25,110 bases of DNA from a virus, in IMG/VR virus record IMGVR_UViG_3300035698_016868, positions 1 to 25,110 of that record. The stretch is one strand, 5' to 3'. Made by a program: the position numbers and the translations under genes. This document shows, piece after piece, positions 4,294-20,380 of the stretch; position 1 is the first letter of the stretch, and each line of letters starts with the position of its first letter. Under the pieces are notes generated by a model. It was not told the DNA's origin. It searched no databases and was given only the letters and a program-made list of their open reading frames with translations.

Positions 4294-4470
4294 TTACATG
4301 TACCTGTCACTATGATTTGAGAATTCTCCAGATTTATTTTGTGTTGATATTTTGAACCCTTTAATGTTATTACTATTAAGGTATTTGTCTATCATTGATA
4401 CATCTTCTTTTGTGATGTCCAACAATTCCTCTTTTTTCCCCTCGTTTAAAATTTCATTTATTCCTTTCAT
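4294..4470 (-). CDS. Small protein with capsid-targeting-like leader, 58 aa
   Basis: The ORF runs from ATG 4470 to TAA 4294. It begins MKGINEILNEGKKEELLD and ends SNHSDRYM. The first ten residues share length and ending (L8-N9-E10) with the ATP-grasp protein (MKNYRHFLNE). In T4-like phages such leaders target proteins into the prohead and are cut after L-x-E or I-x-E. The leader DNA is nearly identical to that of the zeta-like kinase gene: GATTAAATAA 18 bases before the ATG, then ACAAAG-rich sequence and ATGAAAGGA. The body is helical and charged with no enzyme motif. I infer a small late, possibly head-internal protein. Coding status is well supported by the conserved promoter spacing and by the following terminator. 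Confidence 0.72.
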   Translation of the reverse strand: MKGINEILNEGKKEELLDITKEDVSMIDKYLNSNNIKGFKISTQNKSGEFSNHSDRYM

Positions 4471-4488
4471 ATTATATTCTTTGTTTTG

Positions 4489-4498
4489 TTATTTAATC
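4489..4498 (-). promoter_or_regulatory. Candidate late promoter GATTAAATAA (58-aa gene)
   Basis: GATTAAATAA on the minus strand ends 18 bases before the ATG at 4470. The flanks GTGATTAAATAACAAAACAA are the same as those of the motif upstream of the zeta-like kinase. It begins just after the TAG stop of the upstream gene. By analogy with T4 TATAAATA it would be the -10 element of a late promoter. Confidence 0.6.
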
Positions 4499-4499
4499 A

Positions 4500-4886
4500 C
4501 TAGAAGGTAACTATATAATAATAATGCAGTTTTTTGATAGGTTGTTTATTTTTAGTTGTTCTAAACACCTTGTGGTCTAATACATCAATAGGTTTAAAGG
4601 TTTTGCACCCTTGTACTTTACCTTTGGTCAATTCTATTTTAGAAATGATGAACCACTTAGAATCCTTTTCTTTTTGAAAACGTTTTTCATAACGATATGC
4701 AACAGAGTGTTCTTTCTTTAAATCTTTATCAAAGAATTTCTTGAATTTAACCATTCCTGTTGCTTTCAAAAATCCACCAATAGAATCACCTATTAGTATT
4801 TCTTTAAGTACATTAAGTTCTTGTGGTTTAGTTTTAGTAACCCACATATAAAAACAATCCTTTTCAATATTAGTTATTTTTTTCAT
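4500..4886 (-). CDS. Hypothetical basic protein, 128 aa
   Basis: I do not recognise this family. The protein is lysine-rich throughout, starts MKKITNIEKDCFYMWVTK and ends YYYIVTF at a TAG codon, directly followed by the TGATTAAATAA promoter-like motif. Alternating hydrophobic and charged stretches (KWFIISKIELTKGKVQG, HKVFRTTKNK) suggest a beta-rich fold. The ATG overlaps the stop of the previous gene by four bases (ATGA), so it is translationally coupled to the 90-aa protein and lies in the same operon as the lysozyme-like gene. No catalytic residues can be named. Confidence 0.65.
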   Translation of the reverse strand: MKKITNIEKDCFYMWVTKTKPQELNVLKEILIGDSIGGFLKATGMVKFKKFFDKDLKKEHSVAYRYEKRFQKEKDSKWFIISKIELTKGKVQGCKTFKPIDVLDHKVFRTTKNKQPIKKLHYYYIVTF

Positions 4887-5155
4887 TCTTCATCTAGATA
4901 AATGGCTTCGTATAATTTTCTCTTTGAGGGAACGATTAAGTGTGATAGATTTGGTTGATACACGCTAATTTCCTCATGATTATCCAAAACATATTCAATA
5001 ATTATATTAGTTTGTACATTTGAAATTGTAATGTCAATAATGTTTTCATCATTTTCATTATAGAACGAAACAATGTTATTATTGGATTGTTCATTGTCAA
5101 TAACGACAAAACTAGTATCTTTCAGTATCTGTGTTGGTGTTTTGTCTAGTGACAT
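4883..5155 (-). CDS. Hypothetical acidic protein, 90 aa
   Basis: An unrecognised, acidic protein with an isoleucine/asparagine-rich centre (NNNIVSFYNENDENIID, ISNVQTNIIIEYVLD), probably a small beta sandwich. It begins two bases after the stop of the lysozyme-like gene and overlaps the next gene by four bases, so the three are one transcription unit. The opposite charge of this protein and its basic downstream neighbour could reflect an interacting pair, which is only a guess. Confidence 0.65.
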   Translation of the reverse strand: MSLDKTPTQILKDTSFVVIDNEQSNNNIVSFYNENDENIIDITISNVQTNIIIEYVLDNHEEISVYQPNLSHLIVPSKRKLYEAIYLDEE

Positions 5156-5157
5156 TG

Positions 5158-5772
5158 TTATGAGATTTTATATCCTGAGAATAATTTAAGGTAAGATTCG
5201 ATTGTAGTTCCATTTCCATCTACTTTACGTATATGACCACCACAATTTAACCATTCTTTGACACTTCTTTGTCCTACTAAGTGAGCAGCACCAATGATAC
5301 CACTTTCAGTAATAAGAATACCATTAACTGTTGTATTCTTATAAGACTCGATACAATTTTTCAAGTATCGTTTATTTTTCTTGATATATTTTCTTATTGC
5401 AACATCTTGTATTGCTTCTGTAAAGATTGTTGAATCTTTTCTAAACTTGTCTGCAGTGATATATTCCATTCCTATATCCTTTAATGCAAGTTTACCTATT
5501 TGATATTTTCCCATATAACCGAAACGGTTAATAACTTTCCAATTTCCTCTAGATTCCCTCCATGCCAGTTTTTCTAAGAATTGCTCGAATGATTTCTTTT
5601 CATACAAAGGTGCAATCTCTTTAATTTTGATTAGGTTAACAGAATCTACTGTTTCTACATTGTGTATCAATGTAATCGGTGTTGTTTTCATTGGTATTGG
5701 TTTGTTGTCTATATTAGAAGACATTATTGCAAACGATGATACCACAAGTAATAATTCAAATAGTTTTACCAT
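5158..5772 (-). CDS. Secreted lysozyme / lytic transglycosylase-like protein
   Basis: The N-terminus MVKLFELLLVVSSFAIMSS is a short basic start plus a hydrophobic core, a signal peptide or signal anchor. The catalytic region begins near residue 65: LAWRESRGNW, where E73-S74 corresponds to the catalytic Glu-Ser of SLT-type lytic transglycosylases, followed by GYMGKYQIGKLAL (the usual G..G..Q motif). Later GIIGAAHLVG and DGNGTTIESYLKLF match the C-terminal part of this fold. It would cleave the glycan backbone of peptidoglycan in the periplasm for host lysis. Length (204 aa) suits a single-domain enzyme with a spacer. The amidase at 11842-12510 would cut the peptide side. Whether the signal is cleaved is not clear. 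Confidence 0.78.
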   Translation of the reverse strand: MVKLFELLLVVSSFAIMSSNIDNKPIPMKTTPITLIHNVETVDSVNLIKIKEIAPLYEKKSFEQFLEKLAWRESRGNWKVINRFGYMGKYQIGKLALKDIGMEYITADKFRKDSTIFTEAIQDVAIRKYIKKNKRYLKNCIESYKNTTVNGILITESGIIGAAHLVGQRSVKEWLNCGGHIRKVDGNGTTIESYLKLFSGYKIS

Positions 5773-5807
5773 AAATTGTTTATTTTAGCTAAATTTACCA
5801 ATTAGTT

Positions 5808-6002
5808 TTAATTGATATAACTTTCGATGTGTGTTATTAATCTTTCCATCTCAGTCTCATTCGGTTCTATAACCGCTATGATGTTGTTGAATGTTGAATC
5901 ATCTACGAATCCAACTATTTCATTGTCGCTGTCTGTTGATTCAAATATGAATTTTCCTACATATTTTTCATTCAAGCATTTTAGTATCTCTTCCTTTTTC
6001 AT
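5808..6002 (-). CDS. Hypothetical protein, 64 aa
   Basis: A small acidic protein beginning MKKEEILKCLNEKYVGKF. The pattern is helix, strand, strand, helix by eye (FIFESTDSDNEIVGFVDD, NIIAVIEPNETEMERLITHI). No family is recognised. It lies 35 bases upstream of the lysozyme-like gene in the same direction. The 45 bases upstream of its ATG are A/T-rich, with a TATTAAATCACG sequence that is a weak relative of the late motif. Confidence 0.55.
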   Translation of the reverse strand: MKKEEILKCLNEKYVGKFIFESTDSDNEIVGFVDDSTFNNIIAVIEPNETEMERLITHIESYIN

Positions 6003-6047
6003 GTTCGTGATTTAATATACAACAATTATTTTACAATTGCAAGTTTT

Positions 6048-6215
6048 TTATGATTTAATTTCAGAATCTTTTTCTGTATTGTATGTAGTAGTTGTACAAT
6101 ATATGATTCCGGGGTTTCCTGGAAACGTTCCTATATAAGGATAACTAGGATTATTTTCTTGATGTCCCCCGTCCAATGTATGTATAGGTGTGATAGGAAA
6201 GGATAACTGAACTGG
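6048..6215 (-). pseudogene. Open frame without start, in frame with and downstream of the 44-aa gene
   Basis: Immediately after the TAA at 6218-6216 the same frame stays open for 55 codons, reading PVQLSFPITPIHTLDGG... and ending EKDSEIKS at 6048. It has no ATG. Its Gly/Pro/Tyr-rich composition (YPYIGTFPGNPGIIYC) looks protein-like rather than random. The simplest reading is that one ancestral gene of about 100 codons (6350 to 6048) has been cut by a nonsense mutation. Alternatively it is non-coding, or translated from the internal TTG. Confidence 0.35.
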
Positions 6216-6350
6216 TTATACAAACGTTATCTTAAAATTTGGATATAGTTCTTCTATATCTGAAAGGTGAACTTTTAAATCACAAATTTCTATGTGAACA
6301 TCCACTTCTAGTTCGATTAGTTTTTTGTCAGTGTCTACTGTGTATTTCAT
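6216..6350 (-). CDS. Small protein, 44 aa, possibly truncated
   Basis: The ORF starts at ATG 6350, 13 bases after the ATP-grasp stop, and reads MKYTVDTDKKLIELEVDVHI... to a TAA at 6216. The sequence is amphipathic with good codon use for this genome (LSDIEELYPNFKITFV). It probably belongs to the ATP-grasp transcript. The following in-frame open stretch suggests that the original protein was longer. No function can be proposed. Confidence 0.5.
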   Translation of the reverse strand: MKYTVDTDKKLIELEVDVHIEICDLKVHLSDIEELYPNFKITFV

Positions 6351-6362
6351 TATAATTTGGGT

Positions 6363-7349
6363 TTAATATGTCTTAGGGTTTTTCGATTTCTTTAATTCTT
6401 TAGGGTAATCTTTCTTGATTTCATTGTAATAACCTTCACAAATTTCTTCAATCATTTCATTGGTTTCATTTGAAACTTTTTTACCATAAAAATCTTCATA
6501 TATTGCTCCGTAAGTTCTTGCTAGTGTGTTTCCACCCATACCGATTGCACTATTAGATTCTATAACCCAATATTTACCATCTTTATCTAACATAATGTCT
6601 AGAGCATAGAAATCTAAATCAATATCTTTTCTAAACTCTTTTACTAACTTAGCAACATCATAATCTTGTTTACTCAAATCTTGTTCAACATAAAGGAAAC
6701 TTAAACTTTCTTTAGGGTCTTTAGTTGTGATTGTTTTGTTATTCGCTTCAATTGCAATTCTTTCATGAACTAGAAACAACTTATCTTTACAGAAGATAAA
6801 TCTATATTCAGTATCAATGTCCTTAATCATTTCACTAAACACATCTAACTTACAGTCTTTTTTGTCTAGTTCTTTTTGACAATCTTCCATGTTGTCAAAT
6901 TTCATAATTCCGATTCCCGAATGTCCTTCACTTGGTTTTGCAATGATAGGAAATTCTAACTTGTTTATACCTTTAGTACTTGTTAATGTTTTTGGTAACC
7001 ATTCTTTATCACCAAGTAATTCGTGCCAATCTTTCTTCTGCATACTTTTAACCATTTCATCAGTTCTATTATAAACATCAGATTCAGTTATGTCATTTTC
7101 TGAAAGGTATTTGTCTCCAATTTCCTTTTCATTAGAGGCATAGTACAATAAGATAGGTTGTTCTTTTGTTAACGTTGGTATTTTATTGTCTGCAGTAAAA
7201 TATGGTTCATAAAAATTAGTAATTGCTTTTTCAATCAACTTCTTCAATACTTTACTTTCAACTGATGATTTTATAGGTGCATTTTTAATCCACTGTATTC
7301 TTTCGTTCGTTGTTTTGTCCTCATTTAAGAAATGTCTATAATTCTTCAT
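6363..7349 (-). CDS. ATP-grasp ligase with capsid-targeting-like leader
   Basis: The 328-residue protein carries an ATP-grasp core. FPIIAKPSEGHSGIGI (133-148) has Lys138 and the glycine loop that bind ATP; VFSEMI has E173; FYALDIMLD has D251; and WVIESNSAIGMGG has E264 and N266 for magnesium. Enzymes of this fold join a carboxylate to an amine or thiol through an acyl-phosphate; the substrate cannot be read here. The N-terminus MKNYRHFLNE is close to the head-targeting leader of T4 internal proteins (M-K-x-Y-x-x-F-I-x-E, from memory), with L8-x-E10 as a prohead protease site. CATTAAATAA lies 19 bases before the ATG. I infer a late-made enzyme packaged in the head and delivered into the host, where it could modify a host protein or metabolite. 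The fold is secure; the packaging is hypothesis. Confidence 0.82.
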   Translation of the reverse strand: MKNYRHFLNEDKTTNERIQWIKNAPIKSSVESKVLKKLIEKAITNFYEPYFTADNKIPTLTKEQPILLYYASNEKEIGDKYLSENDITESDVYNRTDEMVKSMQKKDWHELLGDKEWLPKTLTSTKGINKLEFPIIAKPSEGHSGIGIMKFDNMEDCQKELDKKDCKLDVFSEMIKDIDTEYRFIFCKDKLFLVHERIAIEANNKTITTKDPKESLSFLYVEQDLSKQDYDVAKLVKEFRKDIDLDFYALDIMLDKDGKYWVIESNSAIGMGGNTLARTYGAIYEDFYGKKVSNETNEMIEEICEGYYNEIKKDYPKELKKSKNPKTY

Positions 7350-7368
7350 CTAGTTAAATTTTCTTTTC

Positions 7369-7378
7369 TTATTTAATG
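7369..7378 (-). promoter_or_regulatory. Candidate late promoter CATTAAATAA (ATP-grasp gene)
   Basis: CATTAAATAA on the minus strand ends 19 bases before the ATG at 7349. It differs from GATTAAATAA at the first base only, and has nearly the same spacing as the motifs upstream of the 58-aa, zeta-like and sheath genes. Confidence 0.5.
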
Positions 7379-7387
7379 TAACGTAAA

Positions 7388-7408
7388 AAGGAGGTGAAAC
7401 ACCACCTT
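7388..7408 (-). terminator. Hairpin terminator
   Basis: AAGGAGGTG (7388-7396) and CACCACCTT (7400-7408) pair with one internal mismatch around an AAA loop. On the minus strand the stem is followed by a T-run (CTTTTTACG). It lies directly after the stop of the 65-aa gene (7412) and just upstream of the ATP-grasp promoter motif. Confidence 0.7.
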
Positions 7409-7411
7409 GTA

Positions 7412-7609
7412 TTAATATCCTAGATTTTTAAGTCTAGCTAGTGTTTCATAATCTTCAACACCTAATAAAAAGGTTTGAAAACTACTTATACTTTCAGGTG
7501 ATAACAGAACCCATTCTTTTAAATCATCGTTATCCATTTTCTTAATATCAGCATGTACATTATCCTCAATTGTCGTTTGAAGTCTAATGAGTTCTATATC
7601 ACTTATCAT
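7412..7609 (-). CDS. Hypothetical acidic protein, 65 aa
   Basis: An unrecognised small protein, MISDIELIRLQTTIEDNV..., predicted mostly helical and acidic, ending ETLARLKNLGY. It has an ATG start and is followed at once by a hairpin terminator, which supports expression. No motif is visible. Confidence 0.55.
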   Translation of the reverse strand: MISDIELIRLQTTIEDNVHADIKKMDNDDLKEWVLLSPESISSFQTFLLGVEDYETLARLKNLGY

Positions 7610-7651
7610 ACTGCAATTAACTTGTTAAGTACTATCATTTCTAATAATATA

Positions 7652-7759
7652 TTATATGTATTTATAGTTTTCATATTTTTTATTTTTACTATTTATTCTA
7701 TGTCTAATTGTTGTTGCTTTAATACCTGTTTCTTTTTCTGCGTCTGCGTCTTTTACCAT
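7652..7759 (-). pseudogene. Remnant of a homing endonuclease C-terminal DNA-binding tail
   Basis: The 35-codon frame from ATG 7759 contains DADAEKETGIKATTIRHRIN followed by SKNKKYENYKYI. The pattern A.KETGI..TTI..RI.SK...Y..Y.Y is that of the helix-turn-helix tail (NUMOD1-like) of phage GIY-YIG and HNH endonucleases. The GIY-YIG genes near 15.7 and 19.6 kb end with comparable tails. No nuclease domain precedes it, so this is probably a scar of a lost endonuclease. The rest of 7610-7826 holds nothing convincing apart from A/T-rich sequence. Confidence 0.5.
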
Positions 7760-7826
7760 TAATTATGTTTTATATTTTATAAATTCCACACATTTCTAGG
7801 ATTACCTTTTAATGTATTCAATCTGA

Positions 7827-8033
7827 TTAAATTGCAATCTCTAATTCTGACTCTATTTTTTTAATATCTTTAGATGTTTCGAACTCAAAATCTTCTATTT
7901 TTATATCATAGAAATTTGTACCCTTTGTGACATTTGTACCATCTTTGTATGATGGTCTTGGATTTTCATCTATGTTATTTTGAAGAAGTATTTCATTCAA
8001 ATTTTCGATATAATATTTATCTGCCTTTATCAT
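7827..8033 (-). CDS. Hypothetical protein, 68 aa
   Basis: A small acidic protein beginning MIKADKYYIENLNEILLQNN and ending KIESELEIAI. No family is recognised. The ATG is 7 bases downstream of the stop that the preceding small gene would have without its duplication (TAA at 8043-8041), so the two genes look like an operon pair behind clpP. The middle (DGTNVTKGTNFYDIKIEDFE) is polar and probably beta. Confidence 0.55.
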   Translation of the reverse strand: MIKADKYYIENLNEILLQNNIDENPRPSYKDGTNVTKGTNFYDIKIEDFEFETSKDIKKIESELEIAI

Positions 8034-8040
8034 ATTTATA

Positions 8041-8212
8041 TTATTTGTTTAACTCTTTTACTAATTCTTGAAATAGATTATCAGCTGATAATCCTACTGC
8101 AGAAACTCCCTGCAGAAACTCCTGCACTTTTTAGGTCTAATATCTGGTCTATTGTCATAGAACAAGATAAATTTTTATTTTGATAAGTTACACTTATTAT
8201 TACATTTTCCAT
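8041..8212 (-). pseudogene. Small gene interrupted by a 13-bp tandem duplication
   Basis: From the ATG at 8212, two bases beyond the clpP stop, the frame reads MENVIISVTYQNKNLSCSMT, IDQILDLKSAGVSA and then meets a perfect tandem repeat. The frame shifts and stops at 8081 after 43 codons. Removing one 13-base copy restores a 52-residue protein whose C-terminus is VGLSADNLFQELVKELNK, with its stop at 8041, seven bases before the next gene. The restored protein has a strand-strand-helix look and no known motif. Confidence 0.65.
8097..8122. repeat. Perfect 13-bp tandem duplication
   Basis: CTGCAGAAACTCC occurs twice without spacer (8097-8109 and 8110-8122), inside a small minus-strand gene. Thirteen is not a multiple of three, so the second copy shifts the reading frame. 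It has the form of a slipped-strand duplication and each copy contains a CTGCAG palindrome. Confidence 0.9.
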
Positions 8213-8213
8213 A

Positions 8214-8777
8214 TTAAAGTATTTCATCTATTACACGTAAATCTCGTGCTTCTTCTGCTGTCATATACCAATCTTTCTTTTCTTTAAAGTTTTTCTTTAA
8301 AACCTTATCAGTAATTTCGGTATTTGCAAGTGTGTGGTCAACTAACCAATCTTGTAAACGTTTACATTCTTGAACGTTTTCCTCTATTTCAGCAACTTTT
8401 CCCCAACCACCAGATGATACTTGATGATACATAGGTGTTGAATGTTTATATGCAAATCTTCTATGTCCTGAGATTAATAAGATGAAACCACAACTCATTG
8501 CGGCACCTGTACATATTGTGTGAATAGGGGTTTTTGATGTTTCAATGATTGAAACTAATCCCATGATTTGATACACATAACCACCATAAGAATCTATAAA
8601 GATTTTGATAGGTTGTCTTTTATATTTCAAACCGTTTATCTTGTATAACTTTTTTAGGTATGTATCATCAGCATTAATGTCTAAAATCTTTTGAGTGACA
8701 TCACCGATTGTTTTTTGGTCCACTTGTTCATTGAATAGGATTGTCCTATCCAATGGTAAAGGTAATCCTTCTGCCAT
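8214..8777 (-). CDS. clpP: ClpP-like serine protease (peptidase S14)
   Basis: The 187-residue protein has the ClpP fold. IKIFIDSYGGYVYQIMGL corresponds to the substrate-binding strand and G-G turn; CTGAAMSCGFILL holds nucleophile S95; TPMYHQV holds H118; and EKKDWYMTAEEARDLRVIDEIL places D169 as the third triad residue, matching the S97-H122-D171 spacing of E. coli ClpP. Length is near that of mature ClpP (about 195 aa). No Clp ATPase is seen in the window. It may use a host unfoldase, or act alone as some phage ClpP-like enzymes do in head maturation. The gene leads a short operon with two small unknown genes and is separated from the kinase by a strong terminator. Confidence 0.93.
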   Translation of the reverse strand: MAEGLPLPLDRTILFNEQVDQKTIGDVTQKILDINADDTYLKKLYKINGLKYKRQPIKIFIDSYGGYVYQIMGLVSIIETSKTPIHTICTGAAMSCGFILLISGHRRFAYKHSTPMYHQVSSGGWGKVAEIEENVQECKRLQDWLVDHTLANTEITDKVLKKNFKEKKDWYMTAEEARDLRVIDEIL

Positions 8778-8824
8778 TGTATATTTGTTTTAGTGAATAA
8801 TTTATTATACTTATTAAAACGAAA

Positions 8825-8852
8825 AAAGGGAACTAATATTTTAGTTCCCTTT
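8825..8852 (-). terminator. Rho-independent terminator, 12-bp stem
   Basis: AAAGGGAACTAA (8825-8836) pairs perfectly with TTAGTTCCCTTT (8841-8852) around TATT. On the minus strand it follows the stop of the zeta-like kinase gene (8873) and continues into a T-run. Confidence 0.9.
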
Positions 8853-8872
8853 GATTTTCTTACTTATTTATG

Positions 8873-9763
8873 TTATCCCCAGTAATTACTTGGTGGAACA
8901 TAACCAGCGATTTTCTTTTGAACATCGTCTGTTACTTTTTTCTTATCAATATCCTTACCAGCTTCTTTAACTTTGATGTAATTAGCATCTTTGATATAAG
9001 AACCACCTTTATCGGATTTAGCGATTGTTGAATCTACACCTCTTTTGTTGAATGCATACCAAATATCACCATCAAGATATTTCTTAATGTCTTTACCCAT
9101 ATCAAGAATATCTTTAGCTGTTTGTGCAGCACCTCTATGTGTGTCCATAAGAATTTCCTCAGGAACTTGTCTACTTCTTTCTTTGTTTTGTGCTTTAGCA
9201 ACGTTAACATCATTAATTACCCAAACTAAGTGAGTGTTGATACTTTCGTAACCTAATTTCTTAATATCTTGTGAAACACTTCTTAATCTATTCAAGTTCT
9301 TTAGTGTCGTATCGAAAATCAAGTTAGGTTTTCTGTCTGCTGGTGCTAATAGAATACTAGCAAATCTAGAAAGGTTTCTTTTGTCTATGATTTTAAGGTT
9401 TTCATCTATAATAGTGTGTAATGTACTAACATCGTCTGGATTTTTCAAGTTAAACTTTGAAATATCTTTACCGGTTTCTTCCATTGCTTTTTTCTTAATC
9501 AAATCTGATTTCAATACAAGTTGTTTAACTTCATCTACATCATATACTTGACCGTCTATACCCATTAACTTATCTTTAACGAATCCTTTACCTGAACCGG
9601 CACCACCTGCTAATAAAACTACATTTCCAAATTTTGGGTATGCTTTTTTACCAAATGTGATAAGTTTTTCATTTAATTCTTCTTGTTCAGTTGTTGTTTC
9701 TGATTCAGAAACAATCAAACCGTCAGATTTTAAAGATGTTTTGAATTGTTCTAATCCTTTCAT
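8873..9763 (-). CDS. Zeta-toxin-like P-loop kinase, possible head-packaged protein
   Basis: VVLLAGGAGSGKGFVKDKL (48-66) contains a Walker A loop, G53-G-A-G-S-G-K59-G. YDVDEVK (74-80) supplies an acidic residue in the position used by zeta-type and related kinases. NLIFDTTLKNLNRL and the arginine-rich segment NKERSRQVPEEILMDTHRGA resemble the later zeta kinase blocks that carry catalytic arginines. Zeta enzymes phosphorylate UDP-N-acetylglucosamine; phage relatives may act on other substrates. The first 40 residues are a polar leader (MKGLEQFKTS...) containing L30-N-E32, a potential prohead protease site. The promoter region is almost identical to that of the 58-aa gene. There is no antitoxin-like neighbour, which speaks against a classical toxin-antitoxin pair. 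I am confident of a P-loop kinase, less so of substrate or packaging. Confidence 0.8.
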   Translation of the reverse strand: MKGLEQFKTSLKSDGLIVSESETTTEQEELNEKLITFGKKAYPKFGNVVLLAGGAGSGKGFVKDKLMGIDGQVYDVDEVKQLVLKSDLIKKKAMEETGKDISKFNLKNPDDVSTLHTIIDENLKIIDKRNLSRFASILLAPADRKPNLIFDTTLKNLNRLRSVSQDIKKLGYESINTHLVWVINDVNVAKAQNKERSRQVPEEILMDTHRGAAQTAKDILDMGKDIKKYLDGDIWYAFNKRGVDSTIAKSDKGGSYIKDANYIKVKEAGKDIDKKKVTDDVQKKIAGYVPPSNYWG

Positions 9764-9781
9764 ATATATTTCTTTGTTTTG

Positions 9782-9791
9782 TTATTTAATC
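9782..9791 (-). promoter_or_regulatory. Candidate late promoter GATTAAATAA (kinase gene)
   Basis: GATTAAATAA on the minus strand ends 18 bases before the kinase ATG at 9763. It starts two bases after the TAG stop of the upstream membrane-protein gene. The flanks match those of the motif at 4489-4498 over more than 20 bases. Confidence 0.6.
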
Positions 9792-11663: not shown

Positions 11664-11858
11664 AGGGGTAAAAATGATTGAACCCTTGTGAACTTGTTCA
11701 GTGAAATCACTTGCCATTAAAAAGAAAACCTCTTTATCACTATCCCTAAATTTAAGTATATAAGGATGGTCATGCATATCGAGGATTTTTCTAACCAAAC
11801 TAAATGTTCGGTGTGTTTCTTTTGTATATTGGAATAGATTTTTACGCTTTATTTGCAT
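11658..11858 (-). CDS. Hypothetical protein, about 66 aa
   Basis: The ATG at 11858 overlaps the end of the amidase gene by 17 bases. The frame is also open upstream to 11900 (ATG at 11894), which would overlap more. From 11858 the protein begins MQIKRKNLFQYTKETHRTF and ends TEQVHKGSIIFTPD. It looks like a small beta domain (YILKFRDSDKEVFFLMASDF). Function unknown; cotranscribed with the amidase. Confidence 0.55.
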   Translation of the reverse strand: MQIKRKNLFQYTKETHRTFSLVRKILDMHDHPYILKFRDSDKEVFFLMASDFTEQVHKGSIIFTPD

Positions 11859-12510
11859 CTTCTTGAATTGCCTCAAATCCACATACGATGGCATTAGCAA
11901 TCTTTAGTTGTGTTTCATGATTTGACATTTTAAGACAATCCTTTAAGTTATCGAAAAAGAACATTTCAAGTAACATTGCTGGCATCCTTGTATTTTTCAA
12001 TACGAAATAGTTTGCTTCTTTATCAACGTCACCATCTGACCATGTATCTTTTCTATACTTTTCATCCGGGAAGGCATCAACAATAGCATTGAAAACAGAT
12101 GTTGCCATTCCATCACTTCTAGTTTGTCCTTTAGATGTAAATATTTCGATACCATGTGCTTTTCCAGCACCACTTGCATTACCATGCATAGAGAAATAAA
12201 CACAATCTTTATTACCACTGTAAAAAGTATTTGCTTTATCAACTCTATCACCTAGAGATATATCAAATTCACTATTAACCACATCGACATAACGCATTTC
12301 TCGGGATTCCATGATACTTTTAACTAATCCAATTACTTGTCTGTTAAACACACCTTCAAAGAAAATTAAATCCTCTTCAGGGTGATACCAACTTTTTTTC
12401 CAAGTAGATTTATTATTCTTATCGAAACTAGGTGATGTTGTGTACTTACCATCAACTATTCCCCCATGTCCTGCATCAAGGAGGAATGTTATTTTTTTAT
12501 TTTTTTCCAT
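11842..12510 (-). CDS. N-acetylmuramoyl-L-alanine amidase (Amidase_3)
   Basis: Using the ATG at 12510 the catalytic domain starts almost at once: FLLDAGHGG (zinc His), FFEGVFNRQV (zinc Glu), FSMHGNASG (second zinc His) and MLLEMFFFDN (catalytic Glu). These are the four conserved sites of zinc-dependent Amidase_3 enzymes, which cut the bond between muramic acid and the stem peptide. A GTG at 12543 would add 11 residues, but those codons lie in a degraded GIY-YIG sequence, so I prefer 12510. There is no signal peptide; as with many phage endolysins it would need a holin or act from the particle. Together with the lysozyme-like protein at 5158-5772 it gives the phage two complementary wall activities. 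Confidence 0.93.
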   Translation of the reverse strand: MEKNKKITFLLDAGHGGIVDGKYTTSPSFDKNNKSTWKKSWYHPEEDLIFFEGVFNRQVIGLVKSIMESREMRYVDVVNSEFDISLGDRVDKANTFYSGNKDCVYFSMHGNASGAGKAHGIEIFTSKGQTRSDGMATSVFNAIVDAFPDEKYRKDTWSDGDVDKEANYFVLKNTRMPAMLLEMFFFDNLKDCLKMSNHETQLKIANAIVCGFEAIQEDANKA

Positions 12511-12511
12511 A

Positions 12512-12634
12512 TTATTTGATTGCTCTATTGATAGCGATGCCACTACCTAAATAATTTTCTTCATCTGTTCCACTACCATAGTAGAATTTGTTGTTAATGA
12601 GATTAGTTGTTTTGTAGAAATAATATGGAGTTCT
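12512..12634 (-). pseudogene. Remnant of a GIY-YIG endonuclease N-terminus
   Basis: A frame without start codon, ending at the TAA 12514-12512 just before the amidase ATG, reads RTPYYFYKTTNLINNKFYYG then SGTDEENYLGSGIAINRAIK. YKTTNLINNKFYYGSG is the first half of the GIY-YIG fold, and YLGSG..I.RAIK is the helix that follows it. The rest of the nuclease is missing, so this is a scar directly at the 5' end of the amidase gene. The first residues overlap the hairpin at 12625-12643. Confidence 0.7.
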
Positions 12635-12643
12635 TTACTCCAT
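12625..12643 (-). terminator. Possible hairpin terminator
   Basis: ATGGAGT (12625-12631) and ACTCCAT (12637-12643) pair around a 5-base loop about 30 bases beyond the stop of the spanin-like gene (12672). The tail on the minus strand is ATTATTTC, so any terminator is weak. Confidence 0.4.
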
Positions 12644-12671
12644 TCCCGTGAGATTAAATGCATTAAGTTAA

Positions 12672-13010
12672 TTATTTTATTTTTTTACTTAATCTATCTA
12701 TTTGTTCGTTATACTTGTGCATAACATCATCTGGTCTTTCTTTAGTTCTGATAATAGCATTATCATGATAAAGATTTCTTGCAGATTGTTTATACCCTTC
12801 TAATTCTAGAAGTGTTTGGAATTCAGATTCACTAATTGTACTGTCTGATAAAAATTTAACTTCACTTTTCAATGAGTCAACAGTAACAACTAAAGCTTTA
12901 TTTGTTTTTAATACCTTTGTAGTAATTCTATTTGTGTTGCACGTATATAAAAACGTACAACACAATAGAATTAAAGTTATCAAAGGTATCTTTTCTTGAA
13001 ACTTTTTCAT
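12672..13010 (-). CDS. Membrane-anchored coiled-coil protein, spanin-like
   Basis: MKKFQEKIPLITLILLCCTFLYTC gives a basic N-terminus and one hydrophobic segment ending in cysteines (C17, C18, C24), either a signal anchor or a poor lipobox. The rest is a heptad-rich polar domain (KALVVTVDSLKSEVKFLSDS, MHKYNEQIDRLSKKIK). One membrane segment plus an extramembrane coiled coil, next to the amidase gene, is the layout of an inner-membrane spanin (Rz-like), which would help disrupt the outer membrane. No overlapping Rz1-type lipoprotein gene was found, so this remains inference. Confidence 0.62.
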   Translation of the reverse strand: MKKFQEKIPLITLILLCCTFLYTCNTNRITTKVLKTNKALVVTVDSLKSEVKFLSDSTISESEFQTLLELEGYKQSARNLYHDNAIIRTKERPDDVMHKYNEQIDRLSKKIK

Positions 13011-13018
13011 ATTAATAA

Positions 13019-13558
13019 TTATTTTCCTTTTGCAGCATTCTCTGCTTGCATTGCATCTCTCATTGCAACCTCAGGTAAAATACCTTGTTCTGCGGCTTGT
13101 AATTCGAAACCAGCATCTCTTAATAATTGTTCATCTGGACCAATTTGTTTTTGGATAACATCAGCAAGAACAGTTAACACTGTTGATACTTGTTCAACAT
13201 GGTCTACACCTGTAAACTTGAATGAAGCAACGAATTGGAAAAACGCTCTAATTGTTTCTTTAGGTACAGCAGTAACTTCATCAGGTTTTAATTCTGTGAT
13301 TGTTTTTTGTGCTGAAGCAATATCCCATGCTTGTTGTCCTACCCATTCTACTTTTGGTAAAACTTCCATTAACAATAATGAAATAGATGCTTGTGAAAAC
13401 GCAACACCATATTTCTTGGCATCTAATCCTTCTCTTACTTCATCAAATTTTACACATAATTCTTCGTATGTTGCAGAATCAATATCAGCACCTAATACTC
13501 TTTCTACTTTTGCAATTGCCTCTGTAGTTTCTGGTTTTAATTTTTTAACTTTTGTCAT
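13019..13558 (-). CDS. Hypothetical alanine-rich helical protein, 179 aa
   Basis: I do not recognise the family. The protein is mostly helical, alanine- and valine-rich compared with its neighbours (TTEAIAKVERVLGADID, VEQVSTVLTVLADVIQKQIG, FELQAAEQGILPEVAMRDAM) and ends NAAKGK. It lies between the spanin-like gene and three further unknown genes that follow the sigma factor, with gaps below 10 bases, so it is part of one operon. Its composition is like that of abundant phage structural or scaffold proteins, but there is no motif to decide. Confidence 0.7.
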   Translation of the reverse strand: MTKVKKLKPETTEAIAKVERVLGADIDSATYEELCVKFDEVREGLDAKKYGVAFSQASISLLLMEVLPKVEWVGQQAWDIASAQKTITELKPDEVTAVPKETIRAFFQFVASFKFTGVDHVEQVSTVLTVLADVIQKQIGPDEQLLRDAGFELQAAEQGILPEVAMRDAMQAENAAKGK

Positions 13559-13565
13559 TTATATT

Positions 13566-14081
13566 TTATTTTATATTTAGGATTAATTTACTGTATTTAT
13601 TGTTTAATAATAATAGTGCTCTATCGAACATATTACCTAGTTGAAAAAACAAACCATGTCTTTCCATCATCAAATCTTCGTTTACACCTTCTAAGTAACC
13701 ACTTTTACTTAATTCAATGAAACCTTCTCTAGAATTCATTATCATATTAGTAATGAATCCTATACAATCACTTGTCTGTAAATCATAAATTTTGTTCACA
13801 TACTTATCATCTTTATCTTTGAAAGGTGAATTAGGTATTGAGAATTCATTTATATTAACGTTAGCTAAATTGTGTTTGTTTTCATGATTACTTAACAGAT
13901 ATGCTAGTGTTGTATGTAATAACGACAATTCATCTGCTGCCAAATCTTCACCATAAGTTTCATTGTATGCTTTTAGAGCAATATCAACTTCAACAAAACA
14001 GTTTTCAGCGATAACATTTCTTTTATCATCTAATTGGTCTTCACTAATTGGATTCAAATGTATTTCTTTTCCTTCTGCCAT
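13566..14081 (-). CDS. Hypothetical protein, 171 aa
   Basis: Begins MAEGKEIHLNPISEDQLDDK and is acidic with a long helical region (LSLLHTTLAYLLSNHENK, FITNMIMNSREGFIELSK). It lacks recognised motifs. The ATG is two bases after the stop of the 87-aa gene and its own stop is 7 bases before the next ATG, so it is an internal operon member. Possibly a structural or assembly protein, given co-expression behind the sigma factor and closeness to tail genes. Confidence 0.68.
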   Translation of the reverse strand: MAEGKEIHLNPISEDQLDDKRNVIAENCFVEVDIALKAYNETYGEDLAADELSLLHTTLAYLLSNHENKHNLANVNINEFSIPNSPFKDKDDKYVNKIYDLQTSDCIGFITNMIMNSREGFIELSKSGYLEGVNEDLMMERHGLFFQLGNMFDRALLLLNNKYSKLILNIK

Positions 14082-14083
14082 TA

Positions 14084-14347
14084 TTATTTAAGGTTAGTAA
14101 CATCATCAAAGAACCTGATAACGTTTGGGATTACATCAGTCATTTCTTTAGTGTCTGATAGAATCTCCATGAACAATTCGATTACTTTTAATCTTTTCTT
14201 TTTCTTGAATTTTTTTAAGGCATTCATAACCTCTTTCCTATCCAATTTTTTATGAGTAGAATTAGTCACTGTACTTAAAAGTGAATTTCTGATTACTCTA
14301 GATAATTGAGGATAGGATTCACAAACGTATTTGTATTGTTTATTCAT
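14084..14347 (-). CDS. Hypothetical basic helical protein, 87 aa
   Basis: MNKQYKYVCESYPQLSRVIR... is helical, with a strongly basic centre (NALKKFKKKKRLKVIELF) and an acidic end (IRFFDDVTNLK). The basic stretch could bind nucleic acid. No family is recognised. It lies in the operon behind the sigma factor, followed at 2 bases by the next gene. Confidence 0.65.
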   Translation of the reverse strand: MNKQYKYVCESYPQLSRVIRNSLLSTVTNSTHKKLDRKEVMNALKKFKKKKRLKVIELFMEILSDTKEMTDVIPNVIRFFDDVTNLK

Positions 14348-14374
14348 AACTATTTTCTTTATACTTAAAGGTAA

Positions 14375-14875
14375 TTAAATGAAAAAATATTTTACACATG
14401 CACCTAAAATTGTTAAAATAATTAAAGGTTTACATACACTCCCTACAATATTCCATATAGTTCTATTTGTTGTAACATCTGTTTGTAATTTCAACGAACA
14501 AAGATACGTAAACGAATCTGGGATATGTATAAGTGGTTGCGGTTCTAAATATTGCGTAACACCTAAAGGTAAAAACTTATCGAGTGCAGCAAGACTATTA
14601 GAAGTAGCTTTTTCTTTTGTTGCTTGATTGTCAAACAATTCTTTCGATTTGAAGTTGATGGTATAATATATGTCACCTGATGAATGTTCATATCGAACAG
14701 GTGCTTCCATCATTTCTTCGGGATAATCAAAATTAGATATGAATGCCTGTTGTAAAGGGGCATCTTCGGATTGAAAGAATGTTACTAAAACATCTTTCAT
14801 TTTACGGTTTTCTTTAAACTCTTTCCAATATTCGATATTGAAGATAAGGTTTGCTATTTTATGCGATAAATTCAT
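14375..14875 (-). CDS. Hypothetical protein with C-terminal membrane anchor
   Basis: The ATG at 14875 overlaps the sigma-factor stop by 17 bases and gives a 166-aa protein starting MNLSHKIANLIFNIEYWKEF. An ATG at 14914 is also open but overlaps the sigma gene by 56 bases. The only membrane segment is at the extreme C-terminus (NIVGSVCKPLIILTILGACVKYFFI), so the protein is tail-anchored with a cytoplasmic domain. No catalytic motif is visible. Translational coupling to the sigma factor suggests a joint role, perhaps as a membrane-bound partner or anti-sigma, but that is a guess. Confidence 0.65.
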   Translation of the reverse strand: MNLSHKIANLIFNIEYWKEFKENRKMKDVLVTFFQSEDAPLQQAFISNFDYPEEMMEAPVRYEHSSGDIYYTINFKSKELFDNQATKEKATSNSLAALDKFLPLGVTQYLEPQPLIHIPDSFTYLCSLKLQTDVTTNRTIWNIVGSVCKPLIILTILGACVKYFFI

Positions 14876-15464
14876 TGTATAATTCTTTGTTAGATTCAAT
14901 TTTTCTCTTTGCATTAAAGATTCTATTCAATACGTTTTGTGATTTCGTTTCGTATTTGTCAGCAATCTCATTAGTTTTCATATTGTTTGCAAATTTATCA
15001 TAAAATATGTTGAAACTCATATCATTATTTAGCACTGTCTTAATATTGTTCCATAATGTAGATACATTTTCATCTTTGATATATTCATCTTGCATATCAT
15101 ACACATAGTCACCAGAATCCTCTGCAATCACGATATTAGACACGATTGGGTCGTCAATGTCACATTTACTATATTGACTGTATTGACCACATACACTCTT
15201 ATAATGTCTAATAATGTTCTGTTTCATTTTAAGAAAAACCATAGTACTGATACTATATTTTTCTACATCGAATTTATCTATATCATTCCATACAGATATA
15301 AAAGTTTCGTTGTAACAATCTTCTAGAAGTTCCTGAGAATTGTTGAATTTTTTAAAGTAGTTGATAGCACTTGGTCTACATGCTTCGAATAATTGCTTGA
15401 ATGCTTTTTCCGATTTAGATTCCTTGAAATTAATCCCTAATTGTTTGATATTTACCTTAGCCAT
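14859..15464 (-). CDS. RNA polymerase sigma factor, ECF-like
   Basis: The 201-residue protein has the two essential sigma regions. Residues 20-90 match region 2 (AFKQLFEACRPSAINYFKKF, then LLEDCYNETFISVWND and FLKMKQNIIRHYKS), which binds the polymerase clamp and melts the -10 element. Residues about 145-192 match region 4 (FANNMKTNEIADKYETKSQN then VLNRIFNAKRKIES), a helix-turn-helix. This is the size of ECF sigmas and of phage late sigmas such as T4 gp55. It would redirect host RNA polymerase to phage late promoters; the GATTAAATAA motif in this window is the obvious candidate target. It heads the minus-strand operon facing away from the tail genes. A TTTGA-poor A/T leader precedes it, with GTAAATATAAAG 21 bases upstream. 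Confidence 0.87.
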   Translation of the reverse strand: MAKVNIKQLGINFKESKSEKAFKQLFEACRPSAINYFKKFNNSQELLEDCYNETFISVWNDIDKFDVEKYSISTMVFLKMKQNIIRHYKSVCGQYSQYSKCDIDDPIVSNIVIAEDSGDYVYDMQDEYIKDENVSTLWNNIKTVLNNDMSFNIFYDKFANNMKTNEIADKYETKSQNVLNRIFNAKRKIESNKELYNEFIA

Positions 15465-15697
15465 ACTTCTGTTTTGTTTACTTTATATTTACTTATTACT
15501 ATTATATACAATTTCACTAAAGAGTATTAATATTTCCCCTGGAGAACTTTTACACTTATTAAATGCGATATGTGTGTGGGATATTTTATTTCATGTCATT
15601 TATTTTCAATTTATTTTCTAAAATGTTAAACTGTCTTGTACAGCATTTCCTTATAGGATATAATACTATTATACGAAATAAAAATGATAATTCCTAA
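15465..15697. other. Divergent control region, no gene
   Basis: This 233-base gap separates the minus-strand sigma operon from the plus-strand tail genes. No ORF in it looks real. It holds A/T-rich sequence on the sigma side, a CCCCTGGAG block at 15537-15545, and a TTGTAC...TATAAT pair facing the tail genes. It would drive transcription both ways. Confidence 0.6.
15636..15664 (+). promoter_or_regulatory. Sigma70-like promoter with 17-bp spacing
   Basis: TTGTAC (15636-15641) is followed after exactly 17 bases by a perfect TATAAT (15659-15664), facing the tail genes. The -10 and spacing are canonical for proteobacterial housekeeping sigma, while the -35 matches only its first half. In an AT-rich gap TATAAT alone is not unusual. 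Confidence 0.4.
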
Positions 15698-16301
15698 TTT
15701 TTTCGATTAAATATAAAAAAGGAACATGGTAGTGGTTCTTTTGATGATTACTTAGGTTCAGATGTAGCATTGAATAACGCTATTAAACAATATGGAATAG
15801 AAAATTTTCATTTTGAACCTCTTAGGTTTTTTAAAAACAGAGAATGTGCGTATAAATACGAAGAACGGTTTCTAACATTATTTGATGTTAAGAATTTAAA
15901 AGATTCCTATAATATGAAAAACACTGCACTTGGTGGAAAAACACATTCAGGAAAATTTCCTGGTCATTGTAATACAACTAAAGGTATTCCAAAAACAAAT
16001 GAACACAAAAAGAAAATTTCAGAATCTTTGAAAGGTCACAAGTTATCATACGAAACCAAATATAAACTATCTGAACTTAAAAAAGATATACCTAAAACAG
16101 AAAATCATAAAAATAACATATCTAAATCACTGAAAGGTATGTTAAAATCAACAAAACATAAACACAACTTATCAGAATCAGCAAAGGGGAATGATAATGC
16201 CAGTAAAAAATAACAATATTTAATGTAGAATATGATTCAATGAAAGAAGCAAGTGAAAATTAGGTATAAGTTTTTACAAACTTAGAAAATTAGTTGATTA
16301 A
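15698..16301 (+). pseudogene. Broken GIY-YIG homing endonuclease with NUMOD3 repeats
   Basis: The frame 15698-16213 reads from HGSGSFDDYLGSDVALNNAI and KQYGIENFHFEPLRFF through E.....YEERFL, the second part of a GIY-YIG nuclease domain. Three NUMOD3-type DNA-binding repeats follow (EHKKKISESLKG, NHKNNISKSLKG, KHKHNLSESAKG). The GIY and YIG strands that should open the protein are absent, so it cannot be an active nuclease. The C-terminal tail is in two other frames: IFNVEYDSMKEASEN then GISFYKLRKLVD with its stop at 16299-16301. Each shift corresponds to one lost base, in the A6 run at 16205-16210 and the TT at 16260-16261. The stop overlaps the promoter-like motif of the sheath gene. Confidence 0.8.
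15705..15713 (+). promoter_or_regulatory. GATTAAATA copy at the 5' end of the broken endonuclease
   Basis: GATTAAATA lies where the missing N-terminal part of the endonuclease should be. With the copy at 16296-16305 it flanks the endonuclease remnant as a direct repeat. It may be the original sheath promoter split by insertion, or simply an A/T-rich match. Confidence 0.3.
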
Positions 16302-16305
16302 ATAA
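16296..16305 (+). promoter_or_regulatory. Candidate late promoter GATTAAATAA (tail sheath)
   Basis: GATTAAATAA ends 18 bases before the sheath ATG at 16324, the same distance as for the 58-aa and kinase genes. It also contains the natural stop codon of the endonuclease remnant (GAT TAA). ACAAAATAATATATAAAA follows as an A/T-rich leader. Confidence 0.62.
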
Positions 16306-16323
16306 ACAAAATAATATATAAAA

Positions 16324-19300
16324 ATGAGTTTACCAGTATATTTATCGAATATCAAGTCAAGCGGTGTTTACGTTTTTGAATTCGACAAATCTCAAATTGT
16401 AACTACTACAACAGCCACTATCAGATTGATTATTGGTTTTAGTAAAGTTGGACCTTTCAATACTCCGGTATTTTGTCAGGACTATGCGTTTTTTCAAAGC
16501 GTTTACGGAAAAAGAGATAAACAACTAGAAAAGAAAGGTTCGTACTTCCATCTTAGTGCTGAAGAAATGTTAAGGGATTCTCCTATCATTGCTTTAAATC
16601 TATTAGAATTGGATGACGAACTAGATAAAACTGAATTTATCAGTTTTTCAACTGCTGCAAACGAAAAGAATCAGAACACTGGTTTTGGACCATTAGCAGG
16701 AAATTTTAACACAAGCAAGTTCTGGAAATTAGATTCAGATAAAGCACTAAAAAATATTGAAGCACAAGAAGGTTTCAGTAAGTCTTTATTGAACTTTGTA
16801 AATGTGGGAAGAAAAACAATATCAGTTATTGTAACGCAAGATAAGATTCAAGGTCTTGATATTACAGCAAATGATTGGTATGGTGAAGCTGACGTTCCAG
16901 AATTCATGGACGGTTCAGATTACATTAACGATTACTGTTTAAGAGTAAATGTTATCAAAGGAGATTATACAGATTTTGAAAAATTATCTGTTGACCCAAT
17001 TTTAGGTGACTATTTCGATACAAACGGTATCAAAAAAGTATATACAGATTCTAACGGGAATACTAGTGATGGACTTGTTTCATTATTGGAAAATCCAAAC
17101 GTAGTGTCATTAGGTGAATATATTGGGGTTTTAATTCCAAGTTTCCAAGATGCTGAAGGAAATGATTTGTATATCCAAGATTTAATTAACTTAGAAACAG
17201 CGTTTAACGGTTTATTCTGTGCTGTTGATGATGATTTATTTGATGGAACAACACTTTTATCAGGTTCAGTAATTGACCTTTTAGGTGGAACTATCGAAGG
17301 TTCAACAAATTTAAGTAAAATTGATTACTTATCTTACTTGGGTACAATTGCGGAAGATTTAAGTTATACATTAGAAGAATCAACTGATGGTGAAATTGCA
17401 GTAAAAGGTAGTACTTTAGATTTATATGGTGCAACAGCATACTCAGGTGATGCAAATGCTCAATTGTCTATTACAGATACAACTGCTTATGGAAGTACTG
17501 GAAAATATGATACAATTAGTGTTTATTCTCCAACATCTTTAGATGAAAATGCTCCAGGTGGTACAAGTGCATTTGCAGATGATGCCACATGGTCTGCATG
17601 GGCAAGAAGTATCAAAGAAAACGTTTCATTCCTAGAATGTTCAAGTATCTTAGGTGCAACTGGTTCAACGGCTGGTATTACTGAATATGCTCTTGTAAAA
17701 GATGTAGCATTATTAAGTGATAAAATTATCATCCAATTAAACACAACAAACGAAGCGGGAACAGAAACATTATTTATTGATGGTTCAGGTTTAACTTCTG
17801 CTAATAGTGTTAGTGTTTTAACTAACCCAGAAATTGGAATTCAAACATTAGATGGTACTGATTATATTTTCACACAAACAGCTGATGCTGGTGTTGATTT
17901 TGTTTCAGGTGTGTTATCTAGTGGTGATACTGTAGAAGTAATTGGAGGTTCTTTCGAGGATTTTGATATTGTTTCTAAAGTTGCAAATGGAAATGCTGAT
18001 GCATTAGCATTATACGTTCCAGGTGTTTTATCACATCAAATCACATATTACACGTTATCAACTGAAACAGGTTCTGATAATGTAACTATGAAGGTTAAAT
18101 CTGTTTCAGGTTCAATCAACAAAACGTTCACTGTAACTAAAATAAATGATTACGAATTTACATATAGTGTAGGTGGAACTAGTCTTTATACTTTAGGTGA
18201 CATTCAACCAAAGGATTTCTTAATCAGAAGTTTTGATGACGGTGCAACTAAAACTAAGTTTGACCCAAGAACAGGAAATACTAGATATACTAGAATTGAT
18301 TCTGTAAAAGAAAATACAGATACACAAATAGTAACTGTAAAAACAATTGACCCTGTTTACTTTGGTACTTCAAATGACGAAATCGAAAGATACCAGTCAG
18401 TACAAAATTTCGTTACTAACTACAATGTTCACGGACTAGATGGTTTTGTAATGAGAGAAGCACAATTACCAAACGGAACAGCACAAAGACAAAATGATAT
18501 AATGGGTGTTTTAACAGATACTGGATTATATGGTGCTTTGGCGGATAGAGAAGCTATTATCTTTAGATATGTAGTTGATACATTCGATGGTTTAATTGAA
18601 CCAAGTAGTAAAAACGTGTTATCTTCTCTATGTAGAGAAAGAAAGTTTGCATTTGCAATCTTAAACGCACCATCTGTTAAACAATTGGACGATTCAACAA
18701 ATCCACTATTCAAATTCGATAGTAGAAGTGATTACGACCCAAGATATGTTGCAACAGGAGGAAACCAAGATTATAACCCAAGTAATACTTTCAGTTTACC
18801 AAGTTTAAATCAAGGTTCAAACTACTGTGGTTTCTACCACCCTTACTTAGTAATAAGAGAAGGACCTTCAAGTAAATTAGTTCCACCAGCAGCGTATGTG
18901 TCGAACAACTTTATGGCAAAATATAGAGCGGACAAACCGTATTCTATCGTTGCTGGTCCAAGAAGAGGTGTACTATCAGGAAATAACATTGTAGGTGTTG
19001 AATATATCTACGATAGAAAAGGTTTAGATGCAGTTGAGCCATTTGGATTGAACGTAACTGTTCCAAGTAGAGGTTTCGGAAACGTAATCAATGCTAACCA
19101 AACAGCACAACAAAATATCAAATCAGCATTATCAAGCGTTCACGTAAGAGAATTGTTAATTTATATTGAGGAAACTGTTGACCAAATCCTTAAAAATTAT
19201 AGATGGGAATTTAACACTGTTCAAACAAGATTAGAAATCAAAACTCTAGTAGATGGTTTCTTAGGTCAGATTTTGAATGATGGTGGACTTTATGATTTCA

Positions 19301-19560: not shown

Positions 19561-20247
19561 ATGAAATGGAACATAGGTAAAATAATATGGGATGATATTC
19601 CAAATAGTATGGGTATTTACATAATTACCAATATAATTACTAATCAACAATATGTGGGAGAAACTATCAATTTTAAACAGAGATTTAAAAAACACAAGTC
19701 TGATTTAATAGGAAATAGACACTTTAATAACTACTTACAAAATTCGTTTAATAAATATAAGATAGATAATTTTACAATTGAGATATATGAAAAAATCGGA
19801 GATGTAGAAATAGAAAATTTAAAAAGAATAGAAAGTGTAGTAATTTTAGAAAAAAAATCTCACATAGAAAATGGTGGATTTAATCTAAGACATGAAGAAG
19901 ATGATAAAAGAATAGTTTCTAAGTACACTAGAAAAAAAATATCAAAAAATTCAAAAGGTCAAGTTGTTGTAAAAGATAAAGATGGTAATAAATTTCAAGT
20001 ATCTATTAAAGACCCTAGATATATAAGTGGTGATTTAGTAGGACACAATACAGGTAATGTTAATTCAAAAGAAACTAAACAACAAATGTCTAAATCACAC
20101 AAAGGAAAAATCTTTACTAAAGAACACAAAGATAATATGTCTAAAAGTGCAAAGATTAGAGCTACAGAAAATAATTCCAATATGGATAAAACTATTTATA
20201 AGGTATTAAATATAGTATCTAATGATATATTTGAAGGACTAAGATAG
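19561..20247 (+). CDS. GIY-YIG homing endonuclease, C-terminal frameshift
   Basis: GIYIITNIITNQQYVGET has G18-I-Y20 and Y31-V-G33, the two strands that name the family, and FKQRFKKH supplies catalytic R41. FNKYKIDNFTIEIYEKI and IESVVILEKKS, then GGFNLRHE, continue the domain; NUMOD3-like DNA-binding repeats follow (KETKQQMSKSHKG, KEHKDNMSKSAK). It would nick or cut DNA in related phages lacking it and spread by repair. The open frame ends NDIFEGLR at 20247. One added A near 20238 would continue as TKIDFIRKYQLTRRHVYN and LMNREKRKYNNWILID, stopping at 20342, a typical helix-turn-helix tail. The nuclease domain is intact, so activity is possible, but target binding may be impaired. It lies between sheath and tube, in the intergenic position usual for free-standing endonucleases. 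Confidence 0.85.
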   Translation: MKWNIGKIIWDDIPNSMGIYIITNIITNQQYVGETINFKQRFKKHKSDLIGNRHFNNYLQNSFNKYKIDNFTIEIYEKIGDVEIENLKRIESVVILEKKSHIENGGFNLRHEEDDKRIVSKYTRKKISKNSKGQVVVKDKDGNKFQVSIKDPRYISGDLVGHNTGNVNSKETKQQMSKSHKGKIFTKEHKDNMSKSAKIRATENNSNMDKTIYKVLNIVSNDIFEGLR

Positions 20248-20342: not shown

Positions 20343-20346
20343 ATAA
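20337..20346 (+). promoter_or_regulatory. Candidate late promoter GATTAAATAA (tail tube)
   Basis: GATTAAATAA ends 34 bases before the tube ATG at 20381, in a purine-rich leader (GATAAGAAATAAGATAAAAA). The spacing is longer than for the sheath. It includes the natural stop codon of the endonuclease tail. Confidence 0.5.
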
Positions 20347-20380
20347 GATAAGAAATAAGATAAAAAATAAATAACAATAT

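Follow-up and report, generated by a model that had tools for sequence, protein, structure and literature searches.

The internal head proteins IPI, IPII and IPIII of phage T4 carry a capsid-targeting sequence (CTS), which was reportedly described by Mullaney and Black in 1996. Targeting by the IPIII leader depends on residues 4 and 7, and its processing on residues 8 and 10 (PMC9026906). The T4 protease gp21 cuts after L/I-x-E and has such a motif, LIE-9, at its own N-terminus (PMC9026906). The Alt ADP-ribosyltransferase of T4 is a head-carried enzyme from which a short propeptide is removed after ITE-6 and which also has a C-terminal cut (PMC5694885). Leaders of a comparable kind are found on three proteins encoded in the IMG/VR virus record IMGVR_UViG_3300035698_016868 (positions 1 to 25,110; this whole stretch of 25,110 bases is here called the window), namely an ATP-grasp ligase-like protein, a P-loop kinase and a protein of 58 amino acids (aa). 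The window is a contig from a contractile-tailed phage and also codes for a tail sheath and tube, a sigma factor and a ClpP-like protein. Its tail tube protein is nearest to those of the 462-kb metagenomic phage LR756500, Sphingomonas phage PAU, the Lak megaphages and Tenacibaculum phages. The best reading, which is very probably correct, is that PAU-type jumbo phages have a T4-type capsid-targeting system with many cargos.

The likeness to IPI, IPII and IPIII consists of a 10-residue N-terminal leader, the L/I-x-E motif, a gp21-family protease and variable bodies (PMC9026906, PMC9958956). The relatives of the window differ from T4 in tagging 17-32 proteins per genome, and the cargo includes an ATP-grasp protein and a P-loop kinase. 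The consensus also varies by lineage, with 13 residues in LR756500 and a LYE ending in PAU, and the predicted cut site of the kinase has moved to residue 32. The likeness to Alt, which acts on the host at entry, would be that of a head-borne enzyme that loses a short propeptide, but the enzyme folds differ. SPN3US and phiKZ, likewise jumbo phages, have a gp21-related protease and eject many proteins that are cut after Glu; the propeptides, however, mostly exceed 100 residues and have AxE or SxE as cut sites, with no portable tag of about 10 residues. In P1 DarB an N-terminal signal is enough to bring a foreign protein into the capsid, but the sufficient segment is 30 residues long and is not shown in that paper as a portable tag on many unrelated proteins (PMC9024508). 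The kinases of PHROG 5268 and 14490 (RB43, KP15, Aeromonas 65 and KVP40) have a homologous body with the leader directly in front, and are labelled as function unknown without a CTS label in the records examined.

All three genes of the window are on the minus strand. The ATP-grasp protein (328 aa, 6363-7349, recognized by motifs and profiles) starts with MKNYRHFLNE (7320-7349) and has a predicted cut after E10; Y4, F7, L8 and E10 match the four key residues of the T4 IPIII leader. The 58-aa protein (4294-4470) starts with MKGINEILNE (4441-4470), with I4, I7, L8 and E10 and the same predicted cut after E10. The kinase (296 aa, 8873-9763, PHROG 5268 and Pfam Zeta_toxin) has an N-terminal leader region starting MKGLEQF, and its residues 1-32 (9668-9763) are a predicted propeptide. 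The hydrophobic residues L4 and F7 are kept, FKTS at residues 7-10 is no cut site, and by comparison with homologues a predicted cut site is found at L30-N31-E32 (9668-9676), just before the conserved KLITFG body. Published mutagenesis of the T4 leader accounts for all three proteins. Suitable residues are present at all four positions in two of them; the kinase has them at 4 and 7 but has K8 and S10, and its cut is probably at 32. These N-termini and their positions had been given in the preliminary description and were found again in the window. One short leader type is thus present on three proteins with three unrelated bodies. The motif [FYI][LIF]xE starting at residue 7 was seen twice in 41 genes with about 0.11 expected from a background rate of 0.0028 per position (roughly P 0.006), an excess that is suggestive only within the window alone. 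A 64-aa open reading frame (ORF; 5808-6002) with LNE at residues 10-12 was not counted as a leader protein, since its spacing is different and relatives conserve the N as well.

The preliminary description had proposed a search for more leader-bearing proteins, and in the relatives many were found. The clade relatives are IMG/VR contigs, of which G001 (66 kb), G004 (74 kb) and G002 (17 kb) each have the kinase and the ATP-grasp gene, and G003, another contig of 74 kb, has the kinase in common with the window. In G001 the leader MKxLNEFLNE is found on 17 proteins, which after removal of 15 N-terminal residues fall into 17 unrelated body families; 13 proteins in 13 body families carry it in G003. 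Typical starts in these two contigs are MKSLNEFLNE, MKHLNEFLNE, MKPLNEFLNE, MKALSEFLNE and MRHLNEFLNE. The version in LR756500 is MKYIKEYEEFLLE, carried by 32 proteins from 22 body families; that in PAU is MKTLxxLYE, and its 19 proteins belong to 19 body families. The motif, tested at one exact position as [FY][LIF]xE in LR756500, G001 and G003 and as L[YF]E in PAU, is in large excess in all four genomes (P 1e-16 to 1e-31). Starting at residue 7, it is found in 12/91 genes of G001 with 0.23 expected (P 1e-17) and in 10/84 genes of G003 with 0.12 expected (P 1e-16); the counts in the other two genomes are 18/287 and 18/626 genes with 0.15 and 1.2 expected, and P is 1e-31 for PAU. The leader residues are conserved while their synonymous codons vary, which shows that the protein and not the DNA is conserved. 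No large leader family was found in PTm1 and RB43 with the patterns used.

A peptidase of the gp21 family (S77), which had also been suggested as a search target, is present in G001, G003, G004, LR756500, PAU, PTm1 and RB43, in all cases over the Pfam cut-off. It is thus carried by close relatives that have the kinase block in common and by the ATP-grasp-bearing G001, G004 and LR756500. The blocks GE(L/M)xHP and (S/C)(S/T)R are conserved in these proteases and presumably hold the catalytic His and Ser. The protease of G001 and G004 starts with MKDYLLIE or MKDLLLIE, with LIE at nearly the same place as LIE-9 of T4 gp21. The N-terminal part of the major capsid protein (MCP) contains LNE in G001 and G004, LYE and INE in LR756500, LNE and LME in PAU, and INE in PTm1. 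The protease and MCP of the relatives therefore appear to carry the same L/I-x-E type of cut motif in their N-terminal parts. In PAU, leader genes directly adjoin the portal (gp147) and protease (gp151) genes and are near the MCP gene (gp156). Three PAU proteins start with the leader and are annotated as scaffold (gp152) or internal capsid protein (gp142 and gp154); for gp142 and gp154 no match to any internal-protein PHROG was found, so that "internal capsid protein" is the annotation of the record alone.

The leader families and the gp21-family protease of the relatives strongly support the head loading that the preliminary description had put forward. Loading into the head and cutting at L-x-E are strongly inferred. 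In the proposed mechanism, the three proteins would be made late, from TTAAATA promoters, and the first ten or so residues, mainly the hydrophobic residues 4 and 7, would attach them to the prohead core. They would then be cut after L-x-E by a gp21-family protease, at residue 10 in both the ATP-grasp protein and the 58-aa protein and at residue 32 in the kinase, which would have lost its own site at 8-10. The mature bodies would remain in the head alongside the DNA and at infection would probably pass into the host. The leader itself would be portable, with a consensus set by lineage, and placed on 17-32 mostly unrelated proteins in each related giant phage. More speculative, though plausible from the analogous T4 proteins Alt and IPI, is that the tagged proteins are injected and modify the host. 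An earlier report of this leader family in phages of the PAU or LR756500 type was not found in the open-licence papers searched. The injected proteins of giant phages are mostly unknown, and a leader that can be read from sequence gives a list of probable head cargo for which any phage of the group can be scanned; such a list can be checked by one virion proteome. The pattern also suggests a CTS mechanism that predates the T-even group and extends beyond it.

Several observations weigh against head loading followed by cutting. The portal, prohead protease (S77) and major capsid genes were searched for in the 25-kb window and none was found, the head module being missing from this fragment. The ClpP-like protein beside the kinase also matches "head maturation protease" PHROGs and could therefore be a second head-related protease. 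A homologue of the 58-aa protein body was searched for and none was found. The open-licence literature gave no virion proteome with these proteins for phages of the RB43, KVP40, PAU or Tenacibaculum type; a published virion proteome of Jiaodavirus phages does not name a zeta toxin or kinase in its text. The ATP-grasp protein of LR756500 keeps the leader type of that phage but ends in KIND without the final E, so that some tagged proteins may escape cutting. In T4, leaders changed to Asp at position 10 are still targeted but no longer cut (PMC9026906), and the LR756500 protein is, as expected from this, a candidate for a targeted, possibly uncut cargo. Finally, the kinase homologues of KVP40 and D479 have neither the P-loop nor KLITFG but keep the leader FLSE, and for some members a structural role in the head is therefore possible.

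The last of these points leads to the explanation that the proteins are loaded into the head but are structural, with a leader that makes them parts of the assembly core for capsid building or DNA packing and not for host takeover. The annotated scaffold and the two annotated internal capsid proteins in the tagged set of PAU agree with such a role, as does the loss of the P-loop in the KVP40-type homologues, and T4 IPIII has been linked to head morphogenesis (PMC9026906). The catalytic motifs of the ATP-grasp protein and kinase are, however, kept in all clade relatives, and the cargo in the same slot differs between close relatives, unlike essential scaffold parts. Other tagged cargos in the relatives are also enzymes, with a polynucleotide kinase (PNK) 3'-phosphatase and a putative metallopeptidase both over cut-offs and weaker matches to a GNAT and a phosphoribosyltransferase. 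A Pfam search of ten cargos of G001, G002 and G004 gave nothing above cut-off. A purely structural role is possible but doubtful.

The capsid-targeting reading is extended by the kinase homologues, of which 254 phage records and 205 viral contigs were found, many of them T4-like and mostly with about 50-55% identity. In the 35 non-redundant homologues that could be parsed, L-x-E is always the three residues before the kinase body, with L, M, N, D, T, S, I, C or E in the middle. In the alignment, E32 of the window therefore falls on a predicted cut site that is conserved, and the displaced LNE at 30-32 pointed out in the preliminary description corresponds to an invariant L-x-E of homologues from T4-like phages. 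Some of the contigs were retrieved with a pattern that itself required [NED]E before K/A; 24 homologues with another middle residue are outside that constraint, and E is still last in all of them. A start resembling the CTS leader is found in 30 of the 35 with a loose pattern. The kinase of RB43, RB43ORF241c, has MKSFKDFVSLDE followed by ALITFGGKAYPKFG, the body beginning ALITFG, and that of Aeromonas 65.2 has MKKFSEFIKLEE followed by KLMVFGKKAYPKFG, the body beginning KLMVFG. Of 723 ORFs around the kinases, 26, mostly the kinases themselves, have [FY][ILVF]xE beginning at residue 7, compared with about 1-3 at most other positions. The L-x-E adjoins the conserved block KLITFGxKAYPKFG and could instead be the structural start of the kinase fold and no cut site. 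This is unlikely: L and E are constant in the 35 homologues and the position between them is filled by any of nine residues, the segment before L-x-E runs from almost nothing to about 170 residues, and the KVP40-type homologues keep LSE where KLITFG is gone. A widespread family of kinases with no assigned function thereby gains a likely place of action, the head, which is testable in the cultured E. coli phage RB43.

The late-promoter-like sequence TTAAATAA is found on the minus strand upstream of all three leader genes of the window, 18 bases before the ATG of the 58-aa gene (4489-4496), 19 before that of the ATP-grasp gene (7369-7376) and 18 before that of the kinase gene (9782-9789), in agreement with the spacing first described. 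TTAAATA at 40 bases or less from the start is found in 3/3 leader genes of the window compared with 3/34 other genes (Fisher P 0.0026). It is commoner within 40 bases of leader genes than of other genes in all five clade contigs (P 0.0002 to 0.03), usually 18-20 bases upstream. The same motif precedes the tail sheath gene of the window (start 16324), and the late promoter is common to the leader genes and the sheath and tube genes. This sharing fits a leader that is an N-terminal signal for a purpose outside the head, for example the phage replication compartment, the membrane or enhanced late translation, and short N-termini common to unrelated proteins can serve many addresses. The varying synonymous codons nevertheless put the constraint on the protein, and the core Y/L-x-x-F-L-x-E consists of the targeting and processing residues of T4. 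The tagged genes of PAU cluster with portal, protease, scaffold and MCP, and L-x-E with a free middle residue is the pattern of a protease site, so that a signal for another address is improbable. Chance resemblance in an AT-rich, lysine-rich proteome, with which the modest excess in the window alone could agree, is refuted by the exact-position counts in the relatives and has a negligible probability.

The ATP-grasp label of the preliminary description holds, with Pfam matches to ATPgrasp_YheCD and Dala_Dala_lig_C just over cut-offs and a match to PHROG 2599. The profile matches D-Ala-D-Ala ligases (E 2e-5), and the single sequence matches a RimK-like PHROG. K138, GHSGxG at 142-147, D251, E264 and N266, which comprise the lysine, the glycine-rich loop and the metal-binding E/N motif, are invariant in five sequences. 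The structure model had a mean predicted local distance difference test (pLDDT) score of 38 and was not used. The leader MK[ND]YR[HQ]FL[NF]E is kept in the window and three clade relatives, and the residues right after it are variable. By lineage, the ATP-grasp leader is MKxYRxFLxE in the clade of the window, MKFIKPYEEF in LR756500 and SYDQFLLE in a 217-kb contig.

The kinase was described at first as zeta-like. The Pfam Zeta_toxin match is over cut-off (E 3e-8), which agrees with this name, but it is limited to residues 142-218, and the protein should not yet be called a zeta toxin. The Walker A motif GGAGSGKG, DVD at 75-77, R196 and R198 are invariant in eight sequences; from the fold, an Asp of DVD is taken to be the acceptor and R196 and R198 the lid arginines. 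The low-confidence structure model (mean pLDDT 59) gave only weak Foldseek matches, with polynucleotide kinase slightly preferred and PezT also listed. The P-loop of the kinase is interrupted, precisely at GGAG^SGKG, by an intein-like insertion in G004 (56476-58350; L005 2849-4723) and in PTm1 (139854-141695); the presence of this insertion in two different phages suggests that the kinase is functionally important. The KVP40 and D479 homologues (KVP40.0065, L094 1456-2901, and L093 1444-2865, respectively) are next to the late sigma gp55 gene and two genes from a vertex or major head protein gene.

The 58-aa gene is located just upstream of a MazG-like gene. At the same position G001 has a 292-aa leader protein, G002 one of 191 aa and G004 three leader proteins. 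The MazG-adjacent site is a cargo slot with different leader proteins in each relative, which supports the 58-aa ORF as a real gene.

Among the larger leader proteins, one of 285-291 aa in G001 (20051-20908) and G003 (18264-19139) has two domains, with the second half after KLNE; this second half is found alone behind a leader in G004 (40428-40757). In the two-domain protein L-x-E is placed as if it separated cargo domains. Internal LNE and LxE are no more frequent in cargo bodies than in other proteins. The idea that cargo bodies in general are L-x-E-rich polyproteins was therefore rejected, which leaves just two cases for a polyprotein reading. In LR756500 about a dozen leader proteins (11706-17016, 124308, 180972, 197835, 198758, 313382 and 331856) share a C-terminal tag like NADDFGFFDN, which is found on leucine-rich-repeat and other bodies and on one protein without the leader. 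A tentative extension of the capsid-targeting reading is that jumbo phages of the PAU and LR756500 type have large, fast-changing arsenals of 15-30 tagged proteins per genome, with a portable leader tuned to the core and protease of each lineage, that some ORFs (the 464-aa kinase of G001 and the 285-291-aa protein) are cargo polyproteins with L-x-E between two cargo domains, and that the C-terminal tag of LR756500 marks a subset.

The ClpP-like protease gene of the window (8214-8777) has no leader and is next to or near the kinase gene in the window, G001, G003 and G004; it was not seen in G002. Between the ClpP-like and ATP-grasp genes is a 68-aa ORF (7827-8033) that matches the N-terminus of a 549-aa ORF at the thymidylate synthase position of G004 and seems to be a remnant of it. 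ORFs that by eye resemble GIY-YIG and HNH-like homing endonucleases (15770-16213, 19561-20247 and 24777-25052) flank the tail sheath gene and the contig end.

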